Shown here in pieces: positions 29,086 through 52,913 of a stretch of 64,000 nucleotides of DNA; positions within the stretch are counted from its first letter, which is position 1; every line of letters begins with the position of its first letter. Under the pieces are notes generated by a model that was not told the origin of the DNA, did not search any database, and was given only the letters and a program-made list of their open reading frames with translations. Source of the stretch: a virus; IMG/VR virus record IMGVR_UViG_3300010367_000050, positions 16,509 to 80,508 of that record; one strand, 5' to 3'. A program made the position numbers and the translations under genes.

Positions 29086-30363
29086 CTAGTCGTGGATGGA
29101 AGCCACACTTGCCGTCACACGACGAGCTTCCAGCTTGGTCTGCTTTGCGGGCTCGGTCACTTCCTGCTTGGACGAACGACGGGAAAGTTCCGTTGCGCCG
29201 CACTTGGTGCAGGACAGAGGAGCAATGGTGTTTGCGCGCTCCGTGTACGAGGTGATGAAGCTCTGGGCTACTTCCAGGGACGCCGTATTGAGCATGGTGC
29301 GCATGGCATCGCTGGCCTTGTCGCCTTCGACCAGATTGTACAGACGCAGGGCTTCGGTGCGACGGTCTTTGACGATGAGCTCCAGGGAGTCCTTGGAAAC
29401 CTTGAGGCCGTCAACTTCCGTCTTCAGGGTGGTGTTCTCGGTTGAGAGCGTGGTGACCTTGGCAGTCTCGGCTGCGAGTTCCGCCGTCTTGGTCTCAGCC
29501 TGAGTCTTGAACGTATCACGTTCCGTGGTCAGAGTCACGATATTGGCGTTGGCGGTTGAAATCTGAGTATTGAAGTTGGCAATCGCGGCGAATACTTCTT
29601 CGTCGCTGGGTGCTTCCTTCTCAAGCTTCAGAACGGCAGCGAGTTTCTTGATATCCAAGGTTTCCTCCAGGGATTGTGAATTGGATGTAGTGCCTGGAAC
29701 AGTGATGGACCCATCTTGACCAATCTGCTTGGCGTACGGGTCTGCTCCCTGCCACACAACACTGTATTCATATGTACGAGTAATCTTGGTGACCAAAGCC
29801 TGTACCATACGGCCATCGACAGTGGAGCCAAGTTTCCACGCAAACTCTTCATCCTTCATCTTTGGATGAGATTTTACGTAGTCGAACTCAATTGTTACAG
29901 AGCCTGAGTTCAGTGCGCCTGAGACCAACCCCCGAGCTACCTTGGGGTCAGCCTTAGAATCAACCTTGAGCATGAAGTTCACACCGTGAGGAACGCCGGG
30001 TGTCTTCTCATCCCAGTAAGCGTCCTGCGTGGTGCCAATCCAGTTATCCACGTTCATGTCGTGGTTCTTGAGGATAACCAGGCTGTTGAACATTCCAACA
30101 GCGTCCTTCAGAGCCTGTCCGTTGTTGTAGCTAAAGTCAATTGCTCCATCACGAACAGTGGTAGCTGACAGCGCACGAAACGGAACAAGGATGTAATCTT
30201 CAGGCTTGACTGTTAGGAAGTCACGAAGCTCAGCCTCACTCATGGAGGAGAAGTCCTGGCTCAGGGACTCCGACAAATGAGCCTTCAAACCCTCAGAGCC
30301 CAGAGGCAGCAGGCTACCGCTCACCTGCATCCTGCCGCGTCCATCTTGTAGACGGATTTTCAT
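29086..30363 (-). CDS. Prohead protease fused to scaffold
   Basis: 425 residues. N-terminal ~220 residues look like an S78-type maturation protease: ILVPFRALSATTVRDGAIDF, LVILKNHDMNVDNWIGTT (catalytic His in KNHD) and VSGALNSGSVTIEFDYV (candidate Ser). Residues ~240-365 are a heptad-rich coiled coil (TERDTFKTQAETKTAELAAETAKVTTL ...), as in scaffold proteins. A CTKC pair lies near residue 386. Protease and scaffold in one chain allows self-removal during head maturation. Catalytic residues are my reading of the motifs, not certain. Confidence 0.75.
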   Translation of the reverse strand: MKIRLQDGRGRMQVSGSLLPLGSEGLKAHLSESLSQDFSSMSEAELRDFLTVKPEDYILVPFRALSATTVRDGAIDFSYNNGQALKDAVGMFNSLVILKNHDMNVDNWIGTTQDAYWDEKTPGVPHGVNFMLKVDSKADPKVARGLVSGALNSGSVTIEFDYVKSHPKMKDEEFAWKLGSTVDGRMVQALVTKITRTYEYSVVWQGADPYAKQIGQDGSITVPGTTSNSQSLEETLDIKKLAAVLKLEKEAPSDEEVFAAIANFNTQISTANANIVTLTTERDTFKTQAETKTAELAAETAKVTTLSTENTTLKTEVDGLKVSKDSLELIVKDRRTEALRLYNLVEGDKASDAMRTMLNTASLEVAQSFITSYTERANTIAPLSCTKCGATELSRRSSKQEVTEPAKQTKLEARRVTASVASIHD

Positions 30364-30550: not shown

Positions 30551-31399
30551 TCATTCAACAGAGTACGCCGGTGTTTCATTTTCAGCATAAAAATCCTTGA
30601 ATACTGTACGGTGGCGGCACTCCGGGTGGAATGGGGGCACTTCATAACCGAGGGCTTGTAACTCTGCGTCAGAGGAGTTTTGCAAGTCTTCATAACTGAT
30701 CTTGCCTTTCAAGAACGGCATGAATGATTCATAGTCCTGGCTTTGGGTCAGAGAGTCCAACCGCGACAATGACGACGATAACGTGAATACACGTCCAATC
30801 ATGTTACGGCAAAACTCACAGGTCTTCAGATCGTCAGGGCCAGCAATCTCAAACGTCTGAACATGGGCTTGGCGCATGTTGTTTAGCTGACCAAACACCC
30901 TGGACCTCGACACGGTTGTGTTCACGATCTGACGAATCTTGGCTCTGTCATTGCCTAGTAGGTCTCCAAAAGTGGAGATGAATGCGTCCATCTCCTTACG
31001 GTCAGTTGCGATCGATCTACCGTTTTCAATAAATGCCTTCCGTATGTAATCCATCACCTTGGTCTTCAACTCTTCGCTTTCAACGTACTTGGCAATATAG
31101 CTCTGAGAAGCGAGGTCTAGGAACTTGATGGCACGATAGTCAGGGAGACGCAGAAACGAGCGAGGCAATTGTGAATCAGAGGCCACCAAAGCCCTGTAAA
31201 TCTCCGAAGTCTGTGACGCTATCATGTTCTTGAACCGGCGAGAGTTCAACTTGATGCCGTATTCCTGGGTCAAAATGGAGTACAAGCTATTGGATATCTG
31301 CGTAAGGTCAGCCGGATTGAGCTCAGCTGAGCCAAGATAGTGTATGATTCTATCAAAGGCCGAGGCTTCGGCGTCATCGAGTTGTGCCAGAATTATGCT
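30551..31399 (-). CDS. MuF-type head morphogenesis protein, read by +1 frameshift from portal
   Basis: 282 codons if joined at 31399. Contains the SPP1 gp7/Mu gpF signature: RVFGQLNNMRQAHVQTFEI, TCEFCRNMIGRVF and PPFHPECRHRTVF (the C..C...H.ECRH zinc-like core). From the upstream in-frame TAA to codon 38 there is no ATG or GTG; the first usable codon is TTG 31285, with no ribosome site and after ~38 well-formed residues (ILAQLDDAEASAFDRIIHYL...). A prfB-like site at the portal stop leads exactly into this frame. By family it is an ejected or capsid-internal protein next to the portal. Confidence 0.75.
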   Translation of the reverse strand, partial: SIILAQLDDAEASAFDRIIHYLGSAELNPADLTQISNSLYSILTQEYGIKLNSRRFKNMIASQTSEIYRALVASDSQLPRSFLRLPDYRAIKFLDLASQSYIAKYVESEELKTKVMDYIRKAFIENGRSIATDRKEMDAFISTFGDLLGNDRAKIRQIVNTTVSRSRVFGQLNNMRQAHVQTFEIAGPDDLKTCEFCRNMIGRVFTLSSSLSRLDSLTQSQDYESFMPFLKGKISYEDLQNSSDAELQALGYEVPPFHPECRHRTVFKDFYAENETPAYSVE

Positions 31400-31412
31400 A
31401 AAGATACCTCCG
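31397..31412 (-). promoter_or_regulatory. prfB-like +1 frameshift signal at portal stop
   Basis: On the minus strand the portal frame ends CGG AGG TAT CTT TAG C. The E. coli prfB signal is AGG GGG TAT CTT TGA C. Shine-Dalgarno-like GGAGG, the same three-base spacing, the same CTT slip codon and a stop followed by C are all present; only the stop differs (TAG, read by RF1). Slipping CTT to TTT puts the ribosome in the MuF frame at AGC. Confidence 0.75.
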
Positions 31413-32990
31413 ATATTTGGATTTTAGTTCGTCTTCCTGTTTGGACAGAGACACAGGCGGCATTCCAGCATCCGTGCGAAGCGTGTTGAGTACCTCAATA
31501 GGAGTGTCCCGCTTGAAGTAGTATTGCTTCATCTCCTTGTTGTAGGCGAACTGAACAGACGCTTGTTCCTTGGGCTGCTTTTTCTTGGGGTTCTTTGGGG
31601 TGTTGTCTGTCTTTCCACCGGTACTCGGGCGTTGATCCAGGTTCTTGTCTTGAGCATTCGGGTCCACACGGGGTTCAGCTTGGTCAGGCACAGCATAACC
31701 AAGTCTGTTTGCCTTCTCCGTCTGGTCAATGACGCCACCGTTGTACAGAGCTTCGGCGTTGGCGATGTCGATCATCTCAGCCTGAGCCTTCTGAAGGTTA
31801 CTCAAGGCCTGTGATTCGTTGAAGCCTACGCAAACTTGCGCTGTGATGCCAGCCATTAGCAAGTCCAAGCCCCATCCAAAGTCCAAGCTCTTACCCACTA
31901 GTCTCTGATAGTTGGTAAGCTGAGACACCATCTTGGAGTGCACCACGCTGGCATATGTTTCTGTAGTGCTGTACGTTCTGCCGTGCATGGCGGGGTCTGC
32001 CATGATCGCAGAGAACAGCTGTTCCTCGTTCATCTTGAACAGATCGTTGATGCCGCGCACGTCACTAGTGACACTCTTCACGTCGAACTCAAACGCACCC
32101 TGAAACCCAGCGGCGATGCCGTCTCCAAAGGAAGTCTTCAGGTTATCTGTAACCTGGTTCAAATAGGCCAAGCAGCGAGCAGTGTATCTGTCCTGATTCT
32201 CACCGGGGTTCTGTTTTGGAGGAGTGACCTTGTAAGTCATCAGACCCATGATACCAACCTTCTTGATAACCTTGTTGATGTTACGAAGCATCGCCTGCTG
32301 TAGAGCTACCGGCTGGAGAGCAGCAATGAATGGAGGAACAGCGTATGGGCTGTCTTCGATAGTCTCAGCGTTGGCGTAGAAGTAGGTCTTGAGGTTGAGC
32401 TTTACAGCGTTGCGGTAGTTATCCAAGGCCAAGACAGTGTTACGGGGAACCTGCACGGGATAATATCCCATACCGTCCTGCCTAGGTACCCACCGAATGT
32501 CTCGCACGGGTACAAAGAACACTTTGTCAATACCAGATAGATTGTTGGTAGGCACCCACTCAGTGGAGATAGCTCCCATGCGAGCGACCTGAGCAAAGAT
32601 ACCGTTGATCAGTCCGTCTGGGCCTCCGCCAAACGGATACATGACGTCAGCGCGGTCGCGGATACGCTGTACCGCAGCTTCGATCACTGTGTCACTCTCG
32701 CCCTTGACGCTCAACAGATGACCCGTGTTCCCTAGTTGCACGATGTGACCCACAGCCTGCCGGATATCGGGATTGATCAGGCTGAGATTGGCGATGGCTT
32801 CATAGATAGCGATAGGCCACTTGCGGGGCAGAGTGAAGTCATACTCACCCTTCAACTCTGAGATTAGCAGTCCAGGGTCATCAGGTGCCGATACGCGAGT
32901 GACAGGCAGTCCACTAACGTCCGTTGTCTGCGTCACTGACTTCGTTGTATTTTTGGCTCGAAGCCCTGTTATCCAATCTCGAAATCCCAT
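31398..32990 (-). CDS. Portal protein
   Basis: 530 residues, AGGAG before ATG. LISELKGEYDFTLPRKWPIAIYEAI ... NPDIRQAVGHIVQLGNTGH, then GLINGIFAQVARMGAISTEWVPT and the late NLQKAQAEMIDIANAEALYNGGVIDQTEKANRLGY segment are the pattern of myovirus portals. It forms the dodecameric DNA channel of the head. Its stop is embedded in a +1 frameshift signal that would add the MuF protein as a C-terminal domain (812 residues in total). Confidence 0.87.
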   Translation of the reverse strand: MGFRDWITGLRAKNTTKSVTQTTDVSGLPVTRVSAPDDPGLLISELKGEYDFTLPRKWPIAIYEAIANLSLINPDIRQAVGHIVQLGNTGHLLSVKGESDTVIEAAVQRIRDRADVMYPFGGGPDGLINGIFAQVARMGAISTEWVPTNNLSGIDKVFFVPVRDIRWVPRQDGMGYYPVQVPRNTVLALDNYRNAVKLNLKTYFYANAETIEDSPYAVPPFIAALQPVALQQAMLRNINKVIKKVGIMGLMTYKVTPPKQNPGENQDRYTARCLAYLNQVTDNLKTSFGDGIAAGFQGAFEFDVKSVTSDVRGINDLFKMNEEQLFSAIMADPAMHGRTYSTTETYASVVHSKMVSQLTNYQRLVGKSLDFGWGLDLLMAGITAQVCVGFNESQALSNLQKAQAEMIDIANAEALYNGGVIDQTEKANRLGYAVPDQAEPRVDPNAQDKNLDQRPSTGGKTDNTPKNPKKKQPKEQASVQFAYNKEMKQYYFKRDTPIEVLNTLRTDAGMPPVSLSKQEDELKSKYRRYL

Positions 32991-33032: not shown

Positions 33033-34658
33033 CTAACTGAACAATACCGGTAGGTTCACTGAATGCTTGTAGCGGGCTCTTGCTAGCTGTGCTATCAACC
33101 AGGCCAACACCAAGTCGTCGTTGTACCCGTCATTAGCTCTTGGGTTAGGCTTGCGAGTTTCCTGAAAATTGAACACCAACATCTCGTTGAGCAAACGCAA
33201 ACTGTTTATGAGAAGAACTGCTTCAGGAATATGCCCTTTCTGGCGTAATTCCTCATGCTCTCTGATGAGCTCTTCACCTGCTGAGATAAGTACCGGGCGG
33301 TTGGCTGAGGTCGTGGTAAATCCAACAATCAGTGTCTCTTCATTGGTAACCGTTTGAGTGTTCGCCTCTTCATCGATGGTAGCATCTTCCTTGATGTAAG
33401 TGTACAGATTGGGATAGTTCTTGTCAATCATCTTCTGTACAGTTACAAGACCAACACCGTTCCGCTCGATTACAACCTGTCCCCAGTTGTAGTACTTTCC
33501 AATAGCGAACAGATACGACGCAAACACGTTTGGCTTGCAATGAACCCGCATCTCTGCCGCTTGCTCGCCGGTCTCCCACTCCACTACTTGTATAGCATGA
33601 AAATCACTTCCGTCTCCAGTAGCGGAGTCCGCTCCAATGATGTATAGCTTTCCAGGAACAGGCTTCTTGAAGATGTACAGCCCCTCGGCCTTCTTCCCAT
33701 AAAGTCCATCGTAGTCATCAAATCTCTCTGGGGCATACAACACTTTACCAATTTTACGAGTGCGAAGCACCTCAGACCAATCAGATAAAATGGTAGTGTC
33801 GAACACAGGACGGCCAGAGTTCAAAAAGTCGCAGTCAACCTCCTGAGCGCATAGTGCCGGGCCAAGTTCCCGCCTCTGCATAGCATACCACTTCTCATCC
33901 CGCTCAGGGTGCATCTTCCAATGAAGCCTTATGGGATTGAAGTCTGACAGCTTACCTACGGCGTCTCTCCACTTGCCAGCAAACCAATTGCCTAGGCCAT
34001 TAGCTGTAGAGATAGCAATGGCTTGTCCGCCCGTCGACAGAGTGGGAAAAGCCGCACCCCAAATCTTGTCAATCCACCTTACAAAGGCAGCTTCGTCAAT
34101 GATCAGAAGTGATAGACCTTCTGAACGGCCTGCCTCTTCAGAAGTCGGCACAGACATGATTCTGGAGTTGTTCTCGAACACAATTGTACTGGTGTTCCAC
34201 TGCGCTGCGAGAGGGCCTTTTAGCCACAACGGTAAATGACGGTAGGCATACTTGATTTTGTCGAGGAAGCGTTTCGCAGTCTCTTCCTTGATCGAGATGA
34301 TGACCACGGTCTTATCCGCACGAAACATCGCGTACCAGAGAGCAAATAGAGCTACAAGCCAGGATAGTCCCATCTGACGAGGCTTCAACACGATGTTGAA
34401 GACGTGAAGCAGAAACTGCTTCAGAGCAATCCTCTGGAAGGGATACAGCTTCATAGGGATACGGCCCTTGACTGGGTCTTGTATGTAGCAGTAATTATGT
34501 ATGAAATGAATGGGGTTGGCCGCACACCGTAGCCACTCCTCGACCTCTGGACCCTTTGGGTCTCTACCAGGTAGTTCAGAGAATCCCCACGATAACCGCG
34601 TGGAGTCAAACTCTATCTCATATTTTTTGATCTTGATCTTGCCTAGCAGCTTTTTCAC
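33033..34658 (-). CDS. terL: Terminase large subunit, T4 gp17-like
   Basis: 541 residues, GTG start 34658 after AGGAAAGG. Walker A-like KPRQMGLSW (~92-100), Walker B with catalytic Glu LLIIDEAAF (~185), then the RNase H-like nuclease: IIGADSATGDGSDFHA, VIERNGVGLVTV and NDGYNDDLVLAWLIA. Pumps DNA into the prohead and cuts concatemers; T4-type terminases usually package headfuls. Overlaps the upstream gene by four bases. Confidence 0.95.
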   Translation of the reverse strand: MKKLLGKIKIKKYEIEFDSTRLSWGFSELPGRDPKGPEVEEWLRCAANPIHFIHNYCYIQDPVKGRIPMKLYPFQRIALKQFLLHVFNIVLKPRQMGLSWLVALFALWYAMFRADKTVVIISIKEETAKRFLDKIKYAYRHLPLWLKGPLAAQWNTSTIVFENNSRIMSVPTSEEAGRSEGLSLLIIDEAAFVRWIDKIWGAAFPTLSTGGQAIAISTANGLGNWFAGKWRDAVGKLSDFNPIRLHWKMHPERDEKWYAMQRRELGPALCAQEVDCDFLNSGRPVFDTTILSDWSEVLRTRKIGKVLYAPERFDDYDGLYGKKAEGLYIFKKPVPGKLYIIGADSATGDGSDFHAIQVVEWETGEQAAEMRVHCKPNVFASYLFAIGKYYNWGQVVIERNGVGLVTVQKMIDKNYPNLYTYIKEDATIDEEANTQTVTNEETLIVGFTTTSANRPVLISAGEELIREHEELRQKGHIPEAVLLINSLRLLNEMLVFNFQETRKPNPRANDGYNDDLVLAWLIAQLARARYKHSVNLPVLFS

Positions 34659-35902: not shown

Positions 35903-36476
35903 GGTCACCCCCATTCCAATCTCTTGGATAAACAAGAAGGCCAAGAAGACCTTGATAAAGATGTATGGCAAGCAGAGACTCATGATACAAGCGTTGCCCA
36001 ACATCGTGAGTCCTGATGACTTCCCCCACCAGGCCTGTTTCGATGTGGAATTCATGATAGCTCTGCTCAGCCATGGAGCGTGGATAACCAAGGATTGGAA
36101 ACCGTACGCCAGGTACACCATAGCACAAAGACTCAAGACCAACAAAGAGGCAATATTCGTTGAACCCTTTGACAAGATAGCTGATGACTTCTTGAACTTC
36201 CAGCTATACGGAGGCACATTCCAGGCCGCAGCAGCCCTCCGCAAACAAGCTGTTGCTACCATGAAATCTGGCGGAAGGACAGCAAGACAAATGGCTGCGG
36301 CCAAGTTGATACTGAGTACCATGGATGAGATACAATTCAACACGTTGGTCCAACCCTTTCACTGGATACGACTGGCTAAGGCTGTGGAAGAACAGTGCCC
36401 TGTCTATTCGCTAGCAGCCTACGCCATAGAGAAGCACAAACAGAAGTTGACGCTTGTAAGGCTGTTACAGTCCTAG
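35895..36476 (+). CDS. Hypothetical protein
   Basis: 193 residues, mostly helical and basic (KKAKKTLIKMYGKQRLMIQ ..., RLAKAVEEQC...HKQKLTLVRLLQS). No domain recognised. Co-transcribed with the HTH gene; its 3' end abuts, on the other strand, the stop of the sigma factor gene (36473), so the two genes converge. Confidence 0.65.
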   Translation: MAKVTPIPISWINKKAKKTLIKMYGKQRLMIQALPNIVSPDDFPHQACFDVEFMIALLSHGAWITKDWKPYARYTIAQRLKTNKEAIFVEPFDKIADDFLNFQLYGGTFQAAAALRKQAVATMKSGGRTARQMAAAKLILSTMDEIQFNTLVQPFHWIRLAKAVEEQCPVYSLAAYAIEKHKQKLTLVRLLQS

Positions 36477-37816
36477 CCTTCAGCCATCAACATCTCTTGT
36501 CTCTTGGTCATGACAACCTTTTGAGCTTGTAACAGACTCTTGGTCTCAAACGAGAGCCGTTGCTGTATATCTGTCAATACCACAAGATTCCTGCTGGTGT
36601 TGAACTTGCCAAAGGGCTGCTTGATGTCAGATAGGAACGCAGATACAGTAGCCTTAGCAGCTGATTCTGTGCCTCCGAACCTATCCTTCACCTGCTTGAC
36701 CAAGTCATTCCGGGTGCACTTACCTGTAACAATCAGCGTGTAAATCAAGCTGTTTCTACAGCCCAATTGAAAACCCATGCTATCTGTGTTTCCAAGACGA
36801 CGCCGGGGTGGAGTTTTGCGTTCTCCAAAGGATGGAATGGGTTTCTTCTTGATCTTCTGAGACTCTGCGCTCTCGTATCCAGGTATTTGATCCAAGCTAA
36901 TGCGTTTGGACACAAGCTCCCTGTACTCATGGTCTGTATGAAGCTTGTGTAGGCAGGTCTTATACACTGCCTTGATACCTTCAGGACTAATGTTGTGTTT
37001 CTTGGACAAGGTTGGGCCACAAGTCCAATCTCGGGACAACGCCTTGAGTATCTCCAAGTCCCTGTCGATGGCATCAATCTGATCCACAGACGGCACAGTA
37101 AAGGTCAGTCCACCAAAGAAGTGTATGAGTCTTTCAAATGCCCGTTCTCCAAGCAGTCCACGTAACTCTGGAATCATGGAATGCTTGAACCTGTTGGAGA
37201 ACATCTTGTCGTCCCTGACTGGCTTCACTCCCTTGGAGTACTCCGTGCGGAGAGTCACCAACACATGGTCTAACAGGAATCTGGCGTGCTTTGGGTTGAC
37301 GTCGAAGCCCTGGACCACGGTTTTCAATACTCGTGTGCGGTTACTCTCGAAATCATTGGAACTAAGAACGCCGAATACATATTTTGCAGCCTCCTCTGCA
37401 CCCGGTTCGGTTCTCAGCTTCTTCAAGGTTTTGTCACTAAGTTCCAGCTGAGGTATCTCATGGATGTTAGCCTTGGAGGGTTGGGCTATGGCGTCGAACT
37501 CGTACTCATCAGGGGTCCGCTTGTGATCCAGAGGTCTCAGTTTAGCCTCATACCACAGAGCCCTCTTGATGACTTGAGTGGCATATACGAACAGGTTACC
37601 CTGATTGGGATTGAATTGATCGATAATGTCTCCACACTTGATCAGTGCGATCTGTACCAAGTCATCTTCTGACTGGTTACGCTGGTCATACACAACATTG
37701 TTGCGTGCTATGTTTTGTATGAGTGGGACAAAATGAGGCAGAATAGCCTCTTTCCGCATGCCAATTCCAATCATGCGGGAGACCTTATGTGTATCAAATA
37801 CGTCAGGATGCTTCAT
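36473..37816 (-). CDS. RNA polymerase sigma factor, gp55-like, with extra C-terminal domain
   Basis: 447 residues, GAGG before ATG. Residues ~25-105 match sigma region 2: PLIQNIARNNVVYDQRNQSEDDLVQIALIKCGDIIDQFNPNQGNLFVYATQVIKRAL. A region-4-like HTH may lie around 285-310 (GPTLSKKHNISPEGIKAVYKTCLHKL). Residues ~350-425 (GFQLGCRNSLIYTLIVTGK...SAFLSDIKQPFGKFNTSRNL) match a module also found in the proteins at 46293 and 52338. It should redirect host polymerase to phage promoters, most likely the late ones. The next upstream gene is HU-like. Confidence 0.82.
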   Translation of the reverse strand: MKHPDVFDTHKVSRMIGIGMRKEAILPHFVPLIQNIARNNVVYDQRNQSEDDLVQIALIKCGDIIDQFNPNQGNLFVYATQVIKRALWYEAKLRPLDHKRTPDEYEFDAIAQPSKANIHEIPQLELSDKTLKKLRTEPGAEEAAKYVFGVLSSNDFESNRTRVLKTVVQGFDVNPKHARFLLDHVLVTLRTEYSKGVKPVRDDKMFSNRFKHSMIPELRGLLGERAFERLIHFFGGLTFTVPSVDQIDAIDRDLEILKALSRDWTCGPTLSKKHNISPEGIKAVYKTCLHKLHTDHEYRELVSKRISLDQIPGYESAESQKIKKKPIPSFGERKTPPRRRLGNTDSMGFQLGCRNSLIYTLIVTGKCTRNDLVKQVKDRFGGTESAAKATVSAFLSDIKQPFGKFNTSRNLVVLTDIQQRLSFETKSLLQAQKVVMTKRQEMLMAEG

Positions 37817-46292: not shown

Positions 46293-46877
46293 CTACTTGA
46301 CGCTGAGGTTGTACTGCGAGAGAACCTTGGCGTACTTCCCGGCTTGGCGCTTCGGGCTGATACCGCGAAGGTCTTTGAGGATTCCCTTGCCGAGGGCCTC
46401 TACTGCCTTGTTGAGGGATTCGTCCTTGACGGAGATGACTCCGCTGTCCTCGTTGACGTTGAGCTCCAAACCGCGTGAGGCGTGATAGGTACCGATCGAA
46501 CGCTTGATGTCGCTGAAGAATACGCTGGCCGTGGTCTTCTTGCGGCGGTTGTCTCCGTCCGTACCGTCGCTGAACTTTGCGAGGAAGGAGTCAATAATCT
46601 CCTTCTTGGTCGAAGTACCGGCGATGAGGAGTTCGCTGAGGAAACCCGTTTCGGTGGCCGCGCCGAATCCGAGTGCGTTGAGCTCGCGTGCCGGAGTTGC
46701 TTCCGTGGTGGTTTCGGTCTCGGTGGACTCTTCGGTAGGCGCGGGTGTCTCTTCCGGGGTTACGTTGACCGGAACGAGTTCGTTGGACTCGACGGTATCG
46801 ACCGTTTCGATGGTCTCTTCCGCTACGGCTACGTGCTGTTCGATGCTCTTGGACGACTTGCGAATCTTCTTCGACAT
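46293..46877 (-). CDS. Small protein with FLSDI/SRGL domain, paralogue A
   Basis: 194 residues, AAGGAG before ATG. N-terminal 65 residues are acidic Thr/Glu/Pro-rich. Residues ~66-140 (LGFGAATETGFLSEL ... ASVFFSDIKRSIGTYHASRGLEL) align to the C-terminus of the sigma factor (36473) and to the protein at 52338. The C-terminal ~35 residues are basic. Codon choice (G/C-ending) is unlike its neighbours and suggests high expression. Probably a DNA- or polymerase-binding protein. Confidence 0.75.
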   Translation of the reverse strand: MSKKIRKSSKSIEQHVAVAEETIETVDTVESNELVPVNVTPEETPAPTEESTETETTTEATPARELNALGFGAATETGFLSELLIAGTSTKKEIIDSFLAKFSDGTDGDNRRKKTTASVFFSDIKRSIGTYHASRGLELNVNEDSGVISVKDESLNKAVEALGKGILKDLRGISPKRQAGKYAKVLSQYNLSVK

Positions 46878-52337: not shown

Positions 52338-52913
52338 CTACTCACCAACCTTGGGGAGCTTGAACTTCTTGATTACTGCAGCAACCTTCTCGGGATGCTT
52401 CTTGAGGGTGAAGCCTTTGAGCTCTTTGAGCACGCCGTTCTTGATTGCTGACTTGATCAGCTTGGTGCGATCGGGATCAAGGGAAAGCTTGCCGCCGTCG
52501 CCCTCGACAATAATCAGGCCACGAGATGCGTGGTAGGTTCCCCACTGCTTGCGCACGTCGGACAGGAAGACGCCAAAGGATATTTTCTTGCGCTTGAACC
52601 CGCCTGGGTCCTTGGACTCAGGGCCAGCGAATTTCTCCTGGAACATCTTCAGCATCTCATCCTTGGTATACTCGCCAGTAGAGAGCAATCCAAGCAGATA
52701 GCTGGTCTCAGTGTTCTCACCGAACCCAAACTCATCGAGTTCTCCAAGTGCCTTGAAGGGCTTGGCCTTCTCAGCCTTTGCCGTTGTGACGGCCTGTTCC
52801 ATCTCTTCCACAGCAGAAGGCGGAACTTCGGTTGGGGTTGCGTTCTTCTTGATTGCAACCTCGTCAGTAAGAATGCCAGCTTTCTTGGCACCCCTTGGTG
52901 TCTTCACTCCCAT
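52338..52913 (-). CDS. Small protein with FLSDI/SRGL domain, paralogue B
   Basis: 191 residues, AAGGAG before ATG. N-terminal ~58 residues are Lys/Ala/Pro-rich; residues ~59-137 (LDEFGFGENTETSYLLGLL ... FGVFLSDVRKQWGTYHASRGLIIV) are the module shared with paralogue A and the sigma factor. C-terminus is Lys-rich. Codon use is G/C-ending, as for paralogue A and the capsid gene, unlike most genes here. Preceded by a promoter-like motif (52951-52967). Confidence 0.72.
   Translation of the reverse strand: MGVKTPRGAKKAGILTDEVAIKKNATPTEVPPSAVEEMEQAVTTAKAEKAKPFKALGELDEFGFGENTETSYLLGLLSTGEYTKDEMLKMFQEKFAGPESKDPGGFKRKKISFGVFLSDVRKQWGTYHASRGLIIVEGDGGKLSLDPDRTKLIKSAIKNGVLKELKGFTLKKHPEKVAAVIKKFKLPKVGE

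Follow-up and report, generated by a model that had tools for sequence, protein, structure and literature searches.

A prfB-type signal at the end of a phage portal gene as a candidate +1 frameshift site joining portal and MuF proteins

Described frameshift sites and portal-MuF arrangements

In the +1 frameshift of prfB, a Shine-Dalgarno-like sequence 3 nt before a CUU codon strains pairing in the P site, and tRNA-Leu moves to UUU during the slow reading of UGA C, as outlined in PMC12421855 and PMC5009743. A survey of 8,164 prfB sites found TGA in 98.6%, TAA in 1.4% and TAG in none (PMC12421855). Among the slip-site tests presented in PMC5009743 were 32 variants with UAG as the next codon, of which CUU_U was by far the best, and GGAGG is described there as a minor Shine-Dalgarno variant among prfB sites. 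In the RECODE collection every CUU-stop +1 site is prfB, according to a 2024 tool paper (PMC10885494). A search of the open-licence literature found no prfB-type signal outside prfB or in a phage, and no frameshifted portal.

Phages are known to use +1 shifts near the ends of structural genes. In SPP1 (gp17.1/gp17.1*) and Listeria phage PSA such shifts add a C-terminal domain to some of the subunits (PMC6316719; PMC5009743). Proline codons are the slip sites there (CCC_U for SPP1), the PSA capsid gene has a pseudoknot, and the accounts of them in those two papers describe no internal Shine-Dalgarno sequence. The subunits are major tail or capsid proteins that receive Ig-like or FN3-like decoration, whereas the protein considered here is a portal. 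In the tail assembly chaperones gpG/gpGT, too, a phage gene pair is joined by a frameshift that sets the ratio of two products. That shift is usually -1, at heptamers and without a Shine-Dalgarno-CUU signal, and it yields an assembly factor, not a part of the virion. The SPP1 case of these chaperones is among the subjects of PMC6316719.

Genetic fusions of portal and MuF proteins occur in Microbacterium phages of clusters EA and EB (PMC7302621), and a portal-MuF fusion matches PHROG phrog_2662. These, like the fusions in three relatives described below (L036, L040 and L041), place two domains in one polypeptide, as is proposed here. In a genetic fusion every portal subunit carries MuF because the frame is continuous, whereas subunits both with and without MuF would come from the frameshift. 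SPP1 gp7 is a separate portal-binding MuF protein, present at 1-2 copies per capsid in the accounts of PMC5576092 and PMC6316719. As with gp7 in those accounts, MuF would be brought to the head interior via the portal, but gp7 is bound non-covalently and has its own gene, whereas the proposed link is covalent and made by recoding.

The end of the portal gene in the window

The stretch analysed, referred to as the window, is 64,000 nucleotides long and comes from an IMG/VR virus contig of 80.5 kb, in which it takes up positions 16509-80508. Its minus strand, on which all features given here lie, carries a head and tail gene cluster of the ordinary tailed-phage kind. The portal gene (31398-32990) has an ATG start with a good Shine-Dalgarno sequence and a zero-frame product of 530 aa, ending in RRYL before TAG; a match to the PHROG portal protein phrog_3753 (E=1.2e-79) places it in the portal family. 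Directly upstream is the large terminase gene (33033-34658), which served for finding relatives, and downstream is a gene resembling a head maturation protease/scaffold (29086-30363; phrog_8158, 2.7e-41). A putative minor head protein of the MuF or SPP1 gp7-like kind occupies the +1 frame (30551-31399), with 282 residues past the slip point and no start codon of its own. It matches a PHROG head morphogenesis family (1.5e-7) and, at E=2.4e-6 and 27.9 bits, under the curated cut-off of 39.65, TIGR01641 (phageSPP1_gp7); a Pfam search gave no match. The place of the gene after the portal fits the MuF/SPP1 gp7 family.

Elsewhere on the same strand, three proteins (36473-37816, 46293-46877 and 52338-52913) have in common a domain of roughly 100 residues, with 28-39% identity. 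In the first the domain is C-terminal and there is a weak match to sigma-70 region 2, which suggests a phage transcription factor; the other two would be paralogues without a recognised Pfam domain.

The portal gene ends AAA TAT CGG AGG TAT CTT TAG C. Re-reading of the minus-strand letters bore out the codons and coordinates given in a preliminary description of this DNA. The putative internal Shine-Dalgarno sequence GGAGG (31407-31411) is separated from the slip codon by 3 nt, the triplet TAT (31406-31404). The slip codon CTT (31401-31403), in the P site, makes CTTT with the next base, and tRNA-Leu can re-pair on UUU. The zero-frame stop TAG (31398-31400) would be in the A site, with 31400 as the skipped base; the C after it (31397) does not vary in four of four lineages and is present at prfB sites too. 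A TAA (31424-31426) closes the MuF frame ahead of the slip point. When one base is dropped after CTT the reading enters the MuF frame exactly and ends at 30551, and the joined protein is 812 aa long, both as first described. In this 812-codon reading CTTT falls in frame once, at the slip site.

The site is like that of prfB (AGGGGG TAT CTT TGA C) in its internal Shine-Dalgarno sequence 3 nt before CTT, the CTT slip, the C after the A-site codon and the +1 direction. The E. coli prfB site likewise has TAT between the Shine-Dalgarno sequence and CTT. The phage site differs in lying outside prfB and not near a gene start, in having GGAGG as its Shine-Dalgarno sequence, in the A-site codon (TAG, or TGA, CGG or TGT in relatives) in its products, which are portal and MuF rather than RF2, and in the absence of RF2 feedback.

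Since TAG sits at the junction, the frames might be joined by stop-codon readthrough or a recoded TAG. Readthrough keeps the zero frame, in which MuF does not lie; furthermore, TAG terminates 43% of the counted genes of this phage and is therefore an ordinary stop in it. We give this explanation a negligible probability.

Taken by itself the bare pattern is weak evidence, because about one occurrence of the loose form RGGNNNCTTTRRC (RGG-N3-CTT-TRR-C) is to be expected in the window. But GGAGGTATCTTTAGC, a 15-mer, is unique, and among the 165 open frames with 100 codons or more RGGNNNCTT stands before the stop in one, that of the portal. A search downstream of the slip site found no RNA structure (z about -1).

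Conservation of the site among relatives

Relatives were sought with terminase, portal and MuF profiles, which yielded three split and two fused lineages; single-sequence scans with the portal and with MuF found none. In the collections searched, IMG/VR among them, the portal-MuF family has four split and two fused lineages, the window included. The split relatives from the terminase-based scan of IMG/VR, L002, L003 and L004, have terminases 68-70% and portals 51-60% identical to those of the window. All three keep GAGGTATCTT to the letter, and in each the MuF frame is +1. The site reads TTTGCGAGGTATCTT TGA C in L002, TACAGGAGGTATCTT CGG C in L003 and TACCGGAGGTATCTT TGT C in L004; L037, another contig from the L003 virus, repeats the L003 site. 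GAGG-TAT-CTT is constant in the four lineages (GGAGG-TAT-CTT in the window), giving each a Shine-Dalgarno-like purine run 3 nt before the slip codon. Slip codon and next base are CTTT in the window, L002 and L004, and CTTC in L003/L037. The A-site codon varies, from TAG in the window to TGA, CGG and TGT, and is always followed by C. A stop read by RF2 (TGA, rarely TAA) is found there in L002 alone and is lacking in three of the four lineages. The stop is not a fixed part of the signal, because two relatives have sense codons in its place.

Where the sense codon (CGG or TGT) follows the slip codon, the portal frame continues for 8 or 10 codons and overlaps MuF (L003, 9164-9190; L037, 221-247; L004, 9244-9276).

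Selection on the site was examined in a four-way portal alignment (window, L002, L003 and L004). Sixty-one runs of three columns are invariant in amino acid in the four portals, and just one of these, RYL at the slip site, is also invariant in codon. At other invariant portal residues the codon was kept in none of 8 cases for Arg, none of 16 for Leu and 2 of 11 for Tyr. All four have C next to the A-site codon though the MuF residue that this base completes differs (Ser, Asp, Gly and Val), an invariance with a chance probability of about 0.02 by codon usage. An alignment of relatives, which the preliminary description had put forward as a check, found the site constant and little conservation in the 60 residues of the portal C-terminus around it. 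The relatives show that selection keeps the signal, in all likelihood to fuse the portal to the minor head protein.

Chance is untenable as an explanation because the signal is conserved in three other lineages. When RGG-N2-4-CTT-NNN-C was sought at junctions between long frames in 2.3 Mb of strand, GAGGTATCTT came up solely in the four split viruses. The DNA pattern GAGGTATCTTNNNCNNNRTNCTR, applied to all of IMG/VR, matched 27 stretches, none of which joins two long frames outside the portal-MuF family; the non-family matches are interior, antisense or without a long +1 frame. Two candidates were rejected: a perfect GGAGGTATCTTTGAC in the L050 group, which is antisense to genes, and a GGAGG-ACTTTGA match in the gut phages L032 and L033, which lies inside a protease gene where there is no MuF. 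Gene decay, or an error of sequencing or assembly, could conceivably have produced the split, the contigs being metagenome-assembled, but the same-base +1 split occurs in four divergent lineages from different datasets with the flanking frames intact, and such an origin is scarcely credible.

A start codon for MuF was looked for in the four split viruses. As at prfB-type sites, the downstream product lies in the +1 frame and has no start of its own. The first ATG, GTG or TTG of the MuF frame comes 38, 21, 18 and 5 codons past the slip; these codons have no Shine-Dalgarno sequence and their positions are not homologous. None of the three start codons falls within Shine-Dalgarno range in the MuF frame, and in 20 of the 21 genes checked a Shine-Dalgarno sequence stands 3-11 nt ahead of the start. 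A startless stretch of 38 codons had been reported for the window. The figure holds from the slip to the first candidate (TTG 31285), not from the TAA: 8 codons separate the TAA from the slip, making 46 before the first ATG, GTG or TTG, and the first ATG is codon 58 past the slip.

The sole MuF ORF open to a gene caller (30551-31285) begins at this TTG and gives a clean reading of 244 aa, lacking a Shine-Dalgarno sequence and the conserved N-terminal segment. If MuF began there, or at an ATG in its frame, the similarity upstream would be accidental. This we consider highly improbable: start positions are not conserved among the relatives, and the 38 codons ahead of the TTG align to the natural fusions described below. 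Differences by codon position in the segment before the first possible start are 126/96/150 at positions 1/2/3, summed over six comparisons. Judged by this pattern and by the alignment, the segment is coding in the MuF frame.

A further possibility is that MuF is made separately, with GGAGG as its ribosome binding site and translation re-initiating on ATA, CTG, ATT or another non-standard start codon immediately past the portal stop. GGAGG adjoins that stop, as in coupled genes, and an AUA lies 10 nt from it in the window and a CUG 10 nt from it in L002. In L003/L037, however, TTC, GGC and CAG are the codons that the MuF frame offers within 12 nt of GGAGG, and therefore even a non-standard start is implausible; in L004 they are TTT, GTC and CAA. 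In L003 and L004, moreover, the portal stop is 8-10 codons farther on. Re-initiation also leaves the invariance of TATCTT and the exact 3-nt spacing unexplained, and the conserved N-terminal segment of MuF takes in residues encoded upstream of the slip. Separate initiation is very unlikely on this evidence.

Programmed +1 frameshifting of the prfB type is, in all probability, the explanation that best fits these sites, as the preliminary description had held: the signal is kept and the MuF start is unusable in three of three split relatives. Relatives with a normal start and no signal would have told against it, and the opposite was seen in all three. In farther relatives of the window phage the fusion is encoded in a single frame. 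Portal and MuF form one uninterrupted ORF of 801-825 aa in L036 (4914-7319), L040 (7905-10382), L041 (7917-10388) and L044 (235-2712). L036 is a viral contig, and L044 is viral and matches L040. L040 and L041 may be prophages or co-binned phages of Deltaproteobacteria, since they are contigs of two 'Deltaproteobacteria' metagenome-assembled genomes. The shifted products of the split viruses would have 812, 819 and 837 residues, lengths that agree with those of the one-frame fusions. At the junction, RRYL before the slip point and SIILAQLDD after it align with REYFAAVYPVLRG and ETYLNAVLPYFDE of natural fusions, and residues from both sides make up a single conserved segment. No argument for the fusion as the product translated from the split genes is stronger than this spanning segment. 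For one natural fusion the predicted structure had a mean pLDDT of 50.5, too poor for junction geometry, and a search of solved structures found no relative.

In fHoEfm07, a farther portal relative, a separate head-morphogenesis gene has its own start. The human gut phages L032 and L033 (MT835790 and MT121964) are distant portal relatives in which a protease/scaffold gene directly follows the portal, with no MuF between.

Proposed mechanism and meaning

We infer the slip itself, its efficiency, the copy number per head and the mixed ring from the sequences compared here. At the portal end the anti-Shine-Dalgarno sequence of the ribosome would pair with GGAGG, just 3 nt from the P-site CUU. The strained duplex, helped by slow reading of an A-site codon whose context is weak (UAG C in the window), would let peptidyl-tRNA-Leu slip from CUU to UUU. 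CUU_U was the best of the 32 sites that had UAG next, and TAG is therefore compatible with such slipping. The L003 site would call for a move from CUU to UUC, where a tRNA-Leu with anticodon GAG can presumably pair too. Ribosomes that slipped would go on in the MuF frame to give the 812-residue portal-MuF chain, and those that did not would terminate at UAG, giving the 530-residue portal. Such a shift would probably serve to attach MuF domains covalently to part of the portal-ring subunits, which would bring them into the head interior and spare MuF a gene start of its own.

The +1-shifted portal-MuF fusion is very probably the intended product, to judge from the junction and the relatives. 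We see an even chance of a partial shift with mixed portal rings as its outcome; the earlier prediction of only a limited number of portal-MuF chains in each head is plausible. It counts against the frameshift reading that two relatives (CTT CGG C and CTT TGT C) are without the stop thought to drive slipping in prfB. No feedback on RF2 is possible in them, because they have no stop codon there, and sensing of RF2 or RF1 is excluded as the common function. Setting the ratio of portal to portal-MuF would be the simplest remaining purpose. The signal may be a stop-independent form of that in prfB, in which GGAGG 3 nt from CUU and a slow A-site codon, stop or sense, suffice for a fixed ratio of portal to portal-MuF and for mixed 12-subunit rings with MuF on some subunits; the case for this is evenly poised.

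A phage family that assembles its virions with the help of a prfB-type signal, and whose A-site codons include TAG and even sense codons, would separate the slip mechanism from RF2 feedback, and the natural A-site variants offer a means of testing which parts of the signal are needed. In phages with the split arrangement gene callers would report a shortened MuF and overlook the fusion. The arrangement also suggests a route by which phages may come to have asymmetric portal rings.
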